Assembly (NCBI RefSeq): GCF_030272895.1 | Contig: NZ_JALRNF010000011.1 | Location: 75,026-139,025 of the forward strand | Direction of reading: 5' to 3' | Length of the DNA: 64,000 bases | From: Pseudomonas sp. BGr12 | GTDB lineage: Bacteria > Pseudomonadota > Gammaproteobacteria > Pseudomonadales > Pseudomonadaceae | The notes under the pieces: generated by a model | Databases searched by the model: none | Told to the model about the DNA's origin: nothing | Seen by the model: only the letters and a program-made list of their open reading frames with translations | In this document: positions 21,914-63,806 of the stretch, piece after piece | How the letters are laid out: each line of letters begins with the position of its first letter | How positions within the stretch are numbered: the stretch's first letter is position 1 | Made by a program: the position numbers and the translations under genes

Positions 21914-23686
21914 ATGTTCAAGCGTTTTTCCGAGCGCCAACGCCAGGCCCTGCGCCTGGGCTGGCGCTTTATCCGGCCATACCGCAAACAGGTGGTGCTG
22001 GCGTTGCTGGCGCTGGTGCTGACCGCCGGCATCACCCTGTCCATGGGCCAGGGTATTCGCATGCTGGTCGACCAGGGCTTCATGACCGGCTCGCCGCACT
22101 TGCTCAACCAGTCCATCGGCGTGTTCCTGGCGTTGGTCGTGGCGCTGGCGATCGGCACTTTCAGCCGCTTCTACCTGGTGTCATGGATCGGCGAGCGCTG
22201 CGTGGCCGATATCCGCCAGCAGGTGTTCGATCACCTGATCTACCTGCACCCGGGTTTTTTCGAGAGCAACCGCAGCTCGGAGATCCAGTCGCGCCTGACC
22301 GCCGATACCACCTTGCTGCAGTCGGTGATCGGCTCGTCGCTGTCGATGTTCCTGCGCAACGTGCTGATGGTGCTGGGCGGCATCGTGCTGTTGTTCGTCA
22401 CAAACCCCAAGCTCACCAGTATCGTGGTGCTGGCCCTGCCGCTGGTGGTTGCGCCGATCCTGATCTTCGGCCGGCGGGTGCGCAGCCTGTCGCGCCAGAG
22501 CCAGGATCGCATCGCCGACGTCGGCAGCTATGTGGCCGAGACCCTCGGGCAGATCAAGACCGTGCAGGCCTACAACCACCAGGGCAGCGACCAGCAACGC
22601 TTCGCCGACACGGTGGAGGCGGCGTTCAGCGTCGCCCGCAAACGCATTCGCCAGCGTGCCTGGCTGATCACCCTGGTGATCGTGCTGGTGCTCGGCGCCG
22701 TGGGCGTAATGCTCTGGGTCGGTGGCATGGACGTGATCGCCGGGCGGATTTCCGCCGGTGAACTGGCCGCCTTTGTGTTCTACAGCCTGATCGTCGGCAG
22801 TGCCTTCGGCACCGTCAGCGAGGTGATCGGTGAGTTGCAGCGGGCTGCCGGCGCGGCGGAGCGGATCGCCGAGTTGCTGGCTGCGCGCAGCGAGATCAGC
22901 GCGCCGGCCCAGGGGCTGGAACGTTCGGCGCCGCGGGCCAGGGGGCGGATCGAGTTGCAGGCGGTGCGCTTTGCCTACCCCTCGCGCCCCGAGCCCGCCG
23001 CCATCGATGGCTTGAGCCTGACCGTCGAGCCGGGTGAAACCCTGGCCCTGGTCGGGCCGTCGGGGGCAGGCAAGTCGACCCTGTTCGACCTGCTGCTGCG
23101 CTTCTACGATCCCCAGCAAGGCCGCATTCTGCTTGACGGTCAAGCTATCGACTGCCTCGATCCCCTGGACCTGCGCCGGCACTTCGCCCTGGTGGCGCAG
23201 AATCCGGCGCTGTTCTTCGGCACGGTGGAGGAGAACATTCGCTATGGCCGGGCCGCTGCGAGCATGGCCCAGGTCGAAGCCGCCGCGCGCAGCGCCCACG
23301 CCCATGACTTCATCCTGCAATTGCCCCAGGGCTACCAGACCCACCTTGGCGATGCCGGCCTGGGCCTGTCGGGCGGCCAGCGGCAGCGCTTGGCGATCGC
23401 CCGGGCCTTGCTGGTGGATGCGCCGATCCTGCTGCTGGACGAAGCCACCAGCGCCCTCGATGCCCACAGCGAGCACCTGATCCAGCAGGCGCTGCCGACC
23501 CTGATGAGCGGGCGTACCACCCTGGTGATCGCCCATCGGCTGGCCACGGTGCAACACGCCGATCGCATCGCGGTGATCGACCAGGGGCGCCTGGTGGCGA
23601 TTGGCACTCACCGTCAACTGCTGGTCGAGAGCCCGTTGTATGCACGCCTGGCGGCATTGCAGTTCAACACCGTTACGGATTTGTGA
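21914..23686 (+). CDS. ABC exporter, fused permease and ATPase (MsbA-like half-transporter)
   Basis: Inner-membrane exporter half-transporter of 590 residues. Six hydrophobic segments cover about 20-305, followed by a nucleotide-binding domain with Walker A GPSGAGKST at about 381-389, signature LSGGQRQR at about 485 and Walker B ILLLDEATSALD at about 505-516. It should act as a homodimer. Its length and layout resemble MsbA/LmrA-type lipid or drug exporters, but the substrate is unknown, and lpxK is absent so it is not msbA by context. A palindromic operator candidate precedes it and a hairpin overlaps its stop. Confidence 0.92.
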   Translation: MFKRFSERQRQALRLGWRFIRPYRKQVVLALLALVLTAGITLSMGQGIRMLVDQGFMTGSPHLLNQSIGVFLALVVALAIGTFSRFYLVSWIGERCVADIRQQVFDHLIYLHPGFFESNRSSEIQSRLTADTTLLQSVIGSSLSMFLRNVLMVLGGIVLLFVTNPKLTSIVVLALPLVVAPILIFGRRVRSLSRQSQDRIADVGSYVAETLGQIKTVQAYNHQGSDQQRFADTVEAAFSVARKRIRQRAWLITLVIVLVLGAVGVMLWVGGMDVIAGRISAGELAAFVFYSLIVGSAFGTVSEVIGELQRAAGAAERIAELLAARSEISAPAQGLERSAPRARGRIELQAVRFAYPSRPEPAAIDGLSLTVEPGETLALVGPSGAGKSTLFDLLLRFYDPQQGRILLDGQAIDCLDPLDLRRHFALVAQNPALFFGTVEENIRYGRAAASMAQVEAAARSAHAHDFILQLPQGYQTHLGDAGLGLSGGQRQRLAIARALLVDAPILLLDEATSALDAHSEHLIQQALPTLMSGRTTLVIAHRLATVQHADRIAVIDQGRLVAIGTHRQLLVESPLYARLAALQFNTVTDL

Positions 23687-23708
23687 CAGCGTTCCGCCGG
23701 CTGTCACA
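23682..23708 (+). terminator. perfect hairpin at the end of the ABC exporter
   Basis: TGTGACAGC, nine-base loop, GCTGTCACA, a perfect 9-base-pair stem that includes the stop codon of the exporter and is followed by TTTCTGT. Probably a weak intrinsic terminator; the U-tract is interrupted. Confidence 0.55.
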
Positions 23709-23766
23709 TTTCTGTAGCAATCCCCTGAGACTATCTAGTCCAGCTGTTGCGTAACGCTCGAACCTG

Positions 23767-23796
23767 GCTGCTATCACTCGATGGCAGCTTTTTTTT
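23767..23796 (+). terminator. strong intrinsic terminator just before the chemoreceptor start codon
   Basis: GCTGCTATC, loop ACTC, GATGGCAGC, then eight T residues: a 9-base-pair stem with one G-U pair and an ideal U-tract. Its end is 32 bases before the ATG of the chemoreceptor at 23829, so it lies inside any leader transcript of that gene unless transcription starts in those 32 bases. Confidence 0.85.
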
Positions 23797-23828
23797 GGCT
23801 CCCATTCCTTGTTTCTGGATTCCTTCCG

Positions 23829-25445
23829 ATGTTGCGTAAATCCCTGAGAATGCAAATTCTCGCGCTGCTGGCTGGCAGTCTGTCGGCCATGCTGATCATC
23901 GCGCTTGTGTGCTTTCAACTGCTGTCGTCCAGTGTTCGTGGTTACGGGCAGTTGATCGACGGGCCGTTGCAGGCCTCGCAGTTGATCGACGAAGCCAACC
24001 TGCAGTTCAAGGTCCAGGTCCAGGAGTGGAAGAACGTGCTGTTGCGCGGCAAGCAGCCGGCTGAGCTGGACAAGTACTGGCAGCAATTTCTTGCCCGTGA
24101 ACAGCAGGTGCAGGGCATTCTCGAACAGTTGATCGAGCACAGCGAGGCGCCGCTCAAGGCGCGCGCCGAACAGCTCAAGGAAAGCCACCGCCAGTTGGGT
24201 CGGGCCTATGCCCAGGGTCGCCAGGCGTTCCTCGCAGCAGGCGGCGATCCGGTAGTGGGGGACCAGGCGGTCAAAGGTGTGGATCGCGCCGCCAGCGAGC
24301 AGATGAGCGCGCTGGTCAGCCAGTTGCGCGCCGACGCCCAGGCCCGCGCCGAGGCGATCAACCAGTCGGCGCAGCGCACCGTGTGGCTGGGCCTGCTGGT
24401 GATGTTCGGTTCGGCGCTGCTGGTCGGCCTGCTCAGCCTGTGGCTGGTCAATCGCAGCCTGATCGAGCCGATCCGTGGCCTGATCGACTACGTCGCGCAA
24501 CTGAGCCAGGGCCGCTTCGAGGCACGGGTGCCCAGCGATCGCCAGGATGAGCTCGGCCGCCTGGCCGTGGCGGCCAATACCTTGCGCGACTTTCTCGCCG
24601 ATACTGTCAGCCGCCTGCAGCGCAATGCCGGCGAGTTGGAAACCGCCAGCGGCGAGTTGCGTAGCATCGCCGGCAGCATGGCGGTGGGCACCGACGATCA
24701 GTTCCAGCGCACCGATCAGGTGGCCACGGCCATGCACGAGATGTCCGCCACTGCCCAGGAAGTCGCCCGCCATGCCGCCGAAGCGGCGCGGGCGGCCGAT
24801 GATGCCGACCACAGTGCCCAGGCGGGCGAGCAGGTCATGCAGGCCACCATCGACACCATTGCCACGGTCAACCAGGAGATCGCCGGTACGGCCGCGGTAA
24901 TTCGCGATCTGGAGGCCGACAGCGCGCGCATCGGCAAGGTGCTGGAAGTGATCCGCGGAATCGCCGAGCAGACCAACCTGCTGGCGCTCAATGCCGCCAT
25001 CGAGGCGGCGCGGGCAGGGGAGGCCGGGCGCGGCTTCGCCGTGGTCGCCGACGAGGTGCGCAGCCTGGCCCAGCGCACGGCGGCGTCGATCGCCGAGATC
25101 AACCAGATCATCAGCGCCGTGCAGTCCGGCGCCGTGGATGCGGTCAGGGCCATCGAAAGCGGCCAGCAGCGCAGTGAAGAGGGGGCCGAGCAGGTCCAGC
25201 GCGCCGGGCAGATGCTGCAGCGCATCACCCAGGCGGTGGAAGCGATCCGCGACATGAACCGGCAGATCGCCACGGCCGCCGAAGAGCAGACCAGCGTGGC
25301 CGAGGACATTTCCCGCAACCTGGTGGAAATCACGCGTATCGCCACCGCCAACCAGCAGGCGGTGCAGCACACCGAGCAGGCCGGTCATCGCCTGCACGGG
25401 CTGTCGGGGCAGCTTGGCGAAGTCACGGCGCGGCTGAGCGCCTGA
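23829..25445 (+). CDS. methyl-accepting chemotaxis protein
   Basis: Transmembrane chemoreceptor of 538 residues. First membrane helix at about 8-33; a periplasmic helical sensor domain of about 155 residues (34-190, four-helix-bundle size); second membrane helix at about 194-215; HAMP at about 216-270; then the signalling domain with the conserved tip [38 protein letters not shown]. No C-terminal CheR-docking pentapeptide is visible (ends TARLSA). The ligand is unknown. ATG at 23829 was chosen because a terminator lies between it and the upstream in-frame ATG at 23781. No FliA promoter is visible near it, unlike aer and cheV. Confidence 0.9.
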
Positions 25446-25827
25446 CCCGCGACGGGGGAAATCCGCCACATGCCGGCAAAAGTGGCGATCAATGTGGCGG
25501 ATTGTCGCCAGAAAAACCGCTAAAGATGGGGTGCGACGACGCGTCCCGGGTATTAGCCCTTGGTCTTGAGAGAGTTGGCCCGCTTTGTGCTTAAAGGCGG
25601 GCAGGCCTAGGCCTCGCAAGCACCCGGTGTGTTGTCAGACGCCCGGGTGACCGTTTCCCGATCCATCGAACAACCCCAGCCGCCAACCATCGCGCGCGCG
25701 TCCAGGCCGATTGCCTGAGTATCGTGCTCAGCTAAGCTTTGGTCTGCGCGAGCAACAACAAGAATCCGGGCGTGCACTACGGGACCAGCGGTCATTGCCA
25801 ATTACTTCACCCCAATTGGATTGAACT
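25446..25827. other. intergenic region upstream of mqo
   Basis: About 380 bases without a gene. It must carry the mqo promoter. I see a weak inverted repeat (CACCCGG near 25621 and CCGGGTG near 25643) that could terminate the chemoreceptor transcript, and no REP. No promoter can be chosen with confidence. Confidence 0.5.
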
Positions 25828-27426
25828 ATGAAAAAAATCCTGCTGACGCTCCTGTGCCTGAGTGTCATCGGCTGCTCCAAGCCCAGTGAGCCCGAAAAGA
25901 GCGTAGACGTGCTGCTGATCGGCGGCGGCATCATGAGTGCAAGTCTGGGCACCTACCTCAACGAGCTGGAGCCGGGCTGGTCGATCGACATCTACGAGCG
26001 CCTGGACAAGGTCGCCGAAGAAAGCTCCAACGCCTGGAACAACGCCGGTACCGGCCACTCGGCCTTCTGCGAGCTGAACTACACCAGCGAAGGCGCCGAC
26101 GGCAAGATCGACATCAGCAAGGCGGTCGGGGTCAACGAGCAGTTCGAGATCTCCAAGCAGTTCTGGGCCTACCAGGTCGAACAGGGCGTGCTGAGCAACC
26201 CGACCTCGTTCATCAACAACGTGCCGCACATGAGTTTCGTCTGGGGCGACAAGAACGTCGAGTTCCTCAAGAAGCGCCATGAAGCCCTGCAGCACAGCTC
26301 GCTGTTCCGTGGCATGGAGTACTCCGAAGACCACGCGCAGATCCAGAAGTGGGTACCGATCGTGATGGAAGGCCGTGCTGCCGACCAGAAGATCGCCGCC
26401 ACCCGCATGAACATCGGTACCGACGTCAACTTCGGCGAGATCACCCGCCAGCTGATCGCCTCGCTGACCAAGCGCGACAACGTCAAGCTGCACGTGCAGC
26501 ACGAAGTGCGCGACATCGTGCGCAACGCCGACAACACCTGGACCGTGGTGGTTGCCGACCTCGCCAACAAGGGCGCCGAGCGTAGCGTCAAGGCCAAGTT
26601 CGTGTTCATCGGTGCCGGTGGTGGTGCCCTGAAACTGCTGCAGAAGTCCGGTATCCCTGAAGCTGACGGCTATGCCGGCTTCCCGGTCGGTGGCCAGTTC
26701 CTGATGACCGACAACCAGGCCATCGTTGCCCGTCACAAGGCCAAGCTGTACGGCAAGGCTTCGGTGGGCGCGCCGCCGATGTCCGTTCCGCACCTGGACA
26801 CCCGCGTGATCGATGGCAAGGAAGTGCTGCTGTTCGGCCCGTTCGCGACCTTCTCCACCAAGTTCCTGAAGAACGGTTCGCTGCTCGACATGTTCGCTGC
26901 GCTGACCACCCACAACATCATGCCGATGACCCACGCTGGCATCGACAACATCGACCTGAGCACCTACCTGATGGGTCAGCTGATGCTCAGCTTCGATGAC
27001 CGCATGGATGCCCTGCGCGAGTACTTCCCGAACGCCAAGAACGAAGACTGGAAACTGCTGCAGGCCGGTCAACGGGTCCAGGTGATCAAGAAGGATCCGG
27101 TGCACGGTGGCGTTCTGCAGTTCGGTACCGAAGTGGTTGCCGCCCAGGATGGCAGCATCGCTGCGCTGCTGGGTGCCTCGCCAGGTGCTTCGACCGCCGC
27201 GCCAATCATGCTGAGCGTGCTGGAGAAGACCTTCAAGGATCGCATCAAGACCCCTGAATGGCAGGCCAAGCTGAAGGAAATCGTGCCGACCTACGGCCAG
27301 AAGCTCAACAACAACCTTGAGCTGACCAACAAGACCCGTGAGTGGAGCAGCTCGCGTCTGGGCCTGCTGTACGTTCCGGTGCTGCCGGAAGCGGCCCCTG
27401 TGGTACAGGCTGAGCCTGCGCTGTAA
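25828..27426 (+). CDS. mqo: malate:quinone oxidoreductase with a lipoprotein signal
   Basis: FAD enzyme of 532 residues that oxidises malate to oxaloacetate and reduces quinone. The FAD-binding glycine motif [17 protein letters not shown] starts at about residue 29, and [18 protein letters not shown] and the C-terminal [16 protein letters not shown] are Mqo signatures. Unusually, it opens with [20 protein letters not shown]: two Lys, a hydrophobic run and a lipobox (VIGC, Cys16) followed by a linker of charged residues before the FAD domain. That predicts export and lipid anchoring, odd for an enzyme usually on the cytosolic face. The start is supported by the family start beginning only at about residue 25 and by a normal upstream region. 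A strong terminator follows. Confidence 0.93.
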
Positions 27427-28138: not shown

Positions 28139-28215
28139 TGGTCGGAGAGACAGGATTCGAACCTGCGGCCTTCTCGTCCCGAACGAGACGCGCTACCTGG
28201 CTGCGCTACACTCCG
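28139..28215 (-). tRNA. tRNA-Pro (anticodon CGG)
   Basis: 77-base cloverleaf on the minus strand: acceptor CGGAGTG and CTCTCCG, D arm GCGC...GCGC, anticodon stem TCTCG/CGAGA with loop TTCGGGA giving anticodon CGG, T arm GCAGG TTCGAAT CCTGT, discriminator A and encoded CCA. The sixth acceptor pair is a U-U mismatch; all others pair. It decodes CCG, a common proline codon in this GC-rich genome. Confidence 0.97.
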
Positions 28216-63774: not shown

Positions 63775-63806
63775 AAACGGGGACCTTTGGGTTCCCGTTT
63801 TTTTTT
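63775..63806 (+). terminator. intrinsic terminator of gap
   Basis: AACGGGGACC, short loop, GGGTTCCCGTT, then nine T residues in all. Confidence 0.95.

Follow-up and report, generated by a model that had tools for sequence, protein, structure and literature searches.

We analysed a stretch of 64,000 nucleotides (nt) from Pseudomonas sp. BGr12 (contig NZ_JALRNF010000011.1, positions 75,026 to 139,025 of the forward strand; hereafter the window), focusing on the short interval between a gene for an ATP-binding cassette (ABC) exporter and a downstream gene for a chemoreceptor. This interval holds a perfect hairpin at the end of the exporter gene, a promoter-like block that opens with a repeat resembling a Pho box, and a strong intrinsic terminator close to the receptor's start codon (Table 1).

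Table 1 Features of the exporter–receptor interval, in positions of the window
Feature	Position	Strand	Basis or remark
ABC exporter, 590 amino acids (aa)	21914..23686	+	Open reading frame (ORF) list; Pfam ABC_membrane and ABC_tran
Exporter stop codon TGA	23684-23686	+	Within the left arm of the first hairpin
First hairpin, perfect, 9 pairs, no T-tract	23682..23708	+	Shares bases with the exporter's stop codon and with the Pho-like box
Pho-box-like 11-base-pair (bp) direct repeat CTGTCAC-ATTT-CTGTAGC	23701..23718	+	12/14 of CTGTCAY-N4-CTGTCAY
-10-like element TGA-GACTAT	23726..23734	+	Hexamer 23729-23734, 10 nt past the 18-bp box
Predicted start (A of a conserved CA, 23742) and first transcribed bases	23742..23765	+	Unpaired or weakly folded; start inferred
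Intrinsic terminator, 10-pair stem and T8	23766..23796	+	A ~55-nt RNA is predicted to end here
Distal leader, 32 nt	23797..23828	+	T-run to receptor ATG
Chemoreceptor, 538 aa, HAMP and MCPsignal, CtpH_PP/PP_2120-like	23829..25445	+	ORF list, domain matches, homology

The terminator consists of a GC-rich stem of ten pairs counting G-T (23766-23789) with a loop of 4, followed directly by a U-run (eight T at 23789-23796), and its T-run ends 32 nt before the receptor's ATG. In the 64-kb window, a stem with 9 or more pairs adjoining 7 or more T is present at two sites, both on the + strand, and the same scan of 40 resampled single strands of equal length (first-order Markov) returned one site in total; the terminator in the receptor's leader is far above chance. 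The second strong terminator-like stem of the window lies on the + strand at 63775-63800 (11 pairs, at least 7 T).

Relatives were collected by a scan of genome contigs, from which the 80 top-ranked loci of a larger set were kept. In 37 of these (L031-L066 and L072) a codirectional exporter precedes the receptor, while the other 43 are without such a match in the surrounding DNA examined. By title, the 37 syntenic loci comprise 35 from Pseudomonas, one from Pantoea and one Paucimonas metagenome-assembled genome, and they were aligned with the window to give 38 loci. The terminator, the box-like repeat, its spacing and their conservation are read from the sequence and this comparison. The conserved block runs from TGT[A/C]ACA through the last base of the T-run. 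Pairwise identity, taken over the 36 rows of alignment A1 (L037 and L059 were left out of it, as they were of the covariance model below), reaches 0.87 in the box, 0.84 in the 10-nt spacer and 0.92 in the hexamer, against 0.61 at third codon positions of the receptor. It is likewise high in the first transcribed bases as predicted (0.79), in the two stem arms (0.84 and 0.97) and in the T-run (0.95), and low in the six bases between hexamer and start (0.42) and in the terminator loop (0.48).

We then used a covariance model of the element with strict filters on 398 genomes of the family, some of which may be those behind the model, and obtained 33 matches, 23 of them at 83 bits or more, including the window. 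All 23 strong matches sit between exporter and receptor, so the leader element seems to belong to this locus, and it is single-copy in the window's genome. Seven of the 10 weak matches have loci (L142-L148), among which only the degenerate L145 is flanked by exporter and receptor. A T-run of 7 or 8 is present in 35 of the 38 aligned loci; a run of at least 7 has been lost in three of the 37 relatives (L037, L040 and L059) and in L145, and the promoter-like block is still recognisable in all four.

An earlier note on this DNA, made from the letters alone, had described the terminator 32 bases before the chemoreceptor's ATG and a separate perfect hairpin at the exporter's end. On recomputation the terminator is confirmed and the distances are correct, the hairpin exists as described, and since the T-run is kept in 35 of 38 loci the leader is conserved beyond one strain. 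The note had also taken the hairpin to end the exporter already, leaving the terminator unneeded by that gene, and this part finds no support. Neither the Pho-box-like block nor what the receptor probably is had been noted there. The hairpin has a perfect 9-pair stem and a 9-nt loop and is followed by TTTCTGTAGCAA rather than a T-tract; it is not among the four terminator-like sites called by a terminator scan; and at its position a stem with 7 or more pairs occurs in only 13 of the 38 aligned loci, with 24 having less and L061 left unscored because of a differing motif. We therefore rejected it as the exporter's terminator. Its right arm overlaps the better-conserved Pho-box-like repeat. Because the hairpin is not terminator-like, the exporter may also use the terminator at 23766-23796.

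The promoter-like block opens with CTGTCACATTTCTGTAGC (23701-23718), an 11-bp direct repeat in which 12 of the 14 Pho-box positions match. Pho boxes are built of two 7-bp repeats, each followed by a 4-bp A/T-rich stretch, and usually replace the -35 element in Escherichia coli (PMC4971064; this and the other papers are cited from excerpts), and the full 22 bp can be read in the window as CTGTCAC-ATTT-CTGTAGC-AATC, two 7-bp repeats each with 4 bp. The distance from box to hexamer is exactly 10 nt in all 38 loci, the hexamer being GAGTAT in 22, GACTAT in 15 (the window included) and GAGCAT in one, and TGAGASTAT is found in every locus except L059 (37/38). In the window's own genome, the best boxes upstream of pstS (L156) and phoB (L184) also score 12/14 each, and 10 nt past them stand TAGAGT and TCTAAT, respectively, which by eye look like -10 elements. 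PhoB itself is encoded in this genome (361 bits with the PhoB model).

Upstream of the 37 relatives, the best box on either strand scores 12 in 12 loci, 11 in 11 and 10 in 14, while among resampled sequences a best box of 12 arises in 0.4% and one of 11 or more in 4.4%. The best upstream box is not always the conserved block, and so the block itself was scored separately (below). A search of the window's own genome with the pattern gave five matches and none in a reversed control, which is a weak test because the pattern had been loosened after the window site was seen. One of the four other sites lies directly 5' of a gene for a Ppx/GppA phosphatase (L152:1501-2542). Boxes of 13-14 are found at three non-syntenic loci (L083, L087 and L095), but the same promoter layout is absent there by eye and they were not counted. 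In a group without the exporter (L084, L105, L107 and L092), a related box, for example TTTCACAAATCTGCAAY, precedes the receptor; the order is box, 10 nt and TACGCT in L084, L105 and L107, and L092 is similar. This layout in L084, L105 and L107 suggests the same kind of control as at the window's receptor.

The receptor, which carries HAMP and MCPsignal domains (Pfam), is probably of the CtpH_PP type, with phosphate sensing assigned by homology. PP_2120, that is CtpH_PP, appears in published tables as a phosphate receptor assigned by homology (PMC6363813, PMC9543091), and both published PP_2120 primers can be placed on the window gene (4 and 5 mismatches) at the 82-base spacing also seen in relatives. 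In P. putida KT2440, phosphate lowers the transcripts of both phosphate receptor genes according to PMC6363813, which cites earlier work, and this agrees with a promoter of the Pho type. Both phosphate receptors of P. aeruginosa likewise go up at low phosphate (PMC4926252).

Taken together, these observations favour, at a probability of roughly 0.55 and as the most economical interpretation, an arrangement in which a Pho-type promoter is followed by partial termination, so that a short RNA is made along with a limited quantity of mRNA for the receptor, while the same terminator closes the exporter operon. A PhoB-type promoter (box and hexamer as in Table 1) would fire at phosphate shortage, and RNA would start at about 23742. 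Much of this RNA would end at the terminator, giving a species of ~55 nt (from A 23742 to the T-run) whose conserved 5' part is mostly unpaired and which ends in eight U, and a fraction would read through to become mRNA for a phosphate chemoreceptor of the CtpH_PP type. The terminator would also stop transcription arriving from the exporter operon. Here the start site, the binding of PhoB and the amount of read-through are predictions. That the terminator has to be crossed for the receptor to be made, one of the two routes given in the earlier note, is most likely, because the promoter-like block lies 5' of it and just 32 nt separate the T-run from the ATG.

The distal leader provides a further view of read-through. 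The distance from T-run to start is 34-105 nt in the 34 relatives measured (78-105 in 30 and 34-64 in four; the three loci without a T-run are absent from this list), counted up to whichever codon aligns with residue 1 of the window's receptor and hence running a few bases over where the ATG is earlier. The window, at 32 nt, and the shortest measured relative, L045, at 34 nt, leave little room for a later promoter. An in-frame upstream receptor start at 23781 was considered and dropped, as the distances vary among relatives by non-multiples of three. Many relatives carry a GACARGGAYGUC-like hairpin between T-run and start, and the pattern ACANGGAYG occurs in 25 of the 37, about 58-72 nt 5' of the start codon; the CsrA-selected hairpin consensus is RUACARGGAUGU (PMC7652899). 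This RsmA/CsrA pattern, with GGA in a hairpin loop, was not seen in the 32-nt leader of the window, which is shorter by some 46-73 nt and lacks the GGA hairpin too. Across 29 aligned segments (25 distinct; alignment A2, which excludes L043 and L064 for a one-base insertion and the motif-less L039, L045, L046, L049, L053 and L072), 84.6% of cells pair, against at most 54.9% when the segments are slid, yet 65 of 500 shuffles pair equally, and covariation in these segments is no higher than in shuffles. In species with the GGA hairpin, its presence suggests that the receptor's mRNA leader begins 5' of it, which fits read-through.

Several points weigh against this reading. A consensus scan called no sigma-70 promoter anywhere in 22300-26500, the promoter-like block included, and the hexamer GACTAT fits TATAAT at only three of six positions. 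When the conserved block itself is scored, the box reaches 12 in eight of 38 loci, 11 in 13, 10 in 13 and 9 in four. The receptors named as affected by PhoBR in strain BIRD-1 are CtpL and PPUBIRD1_4354, and CtpH_PP was not seen by name in the excerpts of that report (PMC5082522). Lastly, the longer distal leader of the relatives could hide a promoter after the T-run.

One alternative is a plain exporter terminator with the receptor transcribed from a promoter behind it. In its favour, the site at 23766-23796 is the single terminator-like site that the terminator scan called on the + strand past the exporter and up to 26500. The promoter scan is neutral here, having called nothing before or after the terminator. 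We nevertheless consider it improbable given the 32 nt and 34 nt left in the window and L045, the conserved promoter-like block 5' of the terminator, and the GGA hairpin that follows soon after the T-run in many relatives, as expected for an mRNA leader that starts earlier. A second alternative keeps the whole architecture and replaces PhoB with another OmpR-type regulator. The repeat in many relatives is TGTAACA-N4-TGTAGCA, which scores only 9 or 10 of 14 (17/38 loci at 9-10), and PhoB-model matches number 82-99 per genome, pointing to many related regulators; the window's box, by contrast, equals those of its own pstS and phoB in score and spacing, and phosphate lowers the transcript in KT2440 (PMC6363813). 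A predicted PhoB site consequently has good support in the clade of the window itself and weaker support elsewhere, where the poor box makes another OmpR-type regulator possible; for the locus as a whole we hold such a substitution to be unlikely.

The remaining alternatives concern what the terminator is for. The short RNA could come from a stand-alone small RNA gene of the Hfq type that acts in trans, the receptor downstream being incidental or fed by leakage. The predicted RNA fits the shape of an Hfq-dependent small RNA, with its conserved and mostly unpaired 5' part, a hairpin and seven or eight U, and T-run loss is accompanied by a changed CTGTTGCG motif in L037, L059 and, by eye, L145. 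This link is loose, however, as CTGTTGCG is kept in L040, which lacks the T-run, and changed in L041, L042 and L064 despite a kept T-run. All 23 strong model matches lie directly 5' of this receptor, and a search for 11-base complements in eight genomes, a weak test, showed by eye no shared target besides the element itself, and so a free-standing gene has perhaps one chance in a handful. A pairing between the leader and the receptor's start was also considered: TGTTGCGTAA is present twice, among the first transcribed bases (23745-23754) and across the receptor's start codon (23830-23839), and is nearly self-complementary, which would allow the two places to pair. This candidate was rejected, because of the 36 rows only the window, L034 and L064 gave p 0.03, and the remaining 33 gave values above 0.05.

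Regulated attenuation, in which a ligand, a protein or a translation event switches between terminator and antiterminator, is what the earlier note had proposed. The layout it rested on stands, with a promoter-like block, a terminator and a gene in that order and the T-run conserved in most loci, and single-sequence folds of L031 and L041 favour a structure other than the usual terminator. The switch itself did not emerge: in the aligned leaders RNAalifold returned no conserved alternative fold or antiterminator, the transcribed part yielding the terminator only, and no pair had changed on both sides (an extra RNAalifold helix joins bases 5' and 3' of the predicted start and was taken as spurious). 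No leader peptide with a ribosome-binding site was seen, judged by eye only, and Rfam gave nothing over 23600-23900 at E up to 5; the sole Rfam match at gathering score in the window is a tRNA (28142-28215, - strand). With no conserved antiterminator, regulated attenuation is possible, if quite unlikely, and the better fit is unregulated partial termination, in which the short RNA may be functional.

Beyond the Pho-type promoter with partial termination favoured above, a broader version can be entertained, in which a single phosphate-starvation start site would supply both a ~55-nt small RNA and the read-through receptor, the terminator would set the ratio of RNA to receptor, and the RsmA-type hairpin of many relatives would link phosphate taxis to the Gac/Rsm lifestyle switch. 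We regard this version as speculative and rather doubtful. If the favoured arrangement is true, a Pho-type promoter with a built-in transcription stop and a short RNA would be a layer of chemotaxis control beyond the promoter. The window strain and several relatives provide natural variants, with the T-run gone, a short distal leader or no GGA hairpin, in which the roles of the parts are directly testable. We did not find this leader described in excerpts of the main-text literature on PP_2119/PP_2120, where KT2440 is expected to have this gene order, on P. putida small RNAs or on start sites, supplementary files lying outside that search, and one P. putida paper concerns a different intergenic region (PMC7324555).

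Downstream of the receptor, a domain match identifies a gene for Mqo (malate:quinone oxidoreductase) at 25828-27426, whose product begins with a putative lipoprotein signal. The window's mqo is 94% identical to that of the g35 genome G396 against 75% to that of G056, which bears the same species label; here kinship labels disagree with the sequence.

Compared with known systems, the promoter-like block resembles Pho regulon promoters in its two 7-bp repeats 11 bp apart, placed 10 nt before a -10-like hexamer. It deviates from the box at two of 14 positions, with more deviations in many relatives, and differs from these promoters in the strong terminator about 25 nt past the predicted start. 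Leader attenuators and leader-derived small RNAs share its order of promoter-like block, short leader, intrinsic terminator and gene, while the window leader, unlike attenuators, showed no alternative fold or Rfam riboswitch and, by eye, no leader peptide. With respect to 5' leaders bound by RsmA/CsrA, many relatives share the GACARGGAYGUC-like hairpin that the window strain is without, and since this hairpin lies about 58-72 nt from the start codon it does not cover the ribosome-binding site. Finally, the receptor is probably like CtpH and CtpL of P. aeruginosa and P. putida in being of the PP_2120/CtpH_PP type, whose transcripts are lowered by phosphate in KT2440; excerpts of the literature on those receptors mention no leader terminator, whereas the window's gene has one.

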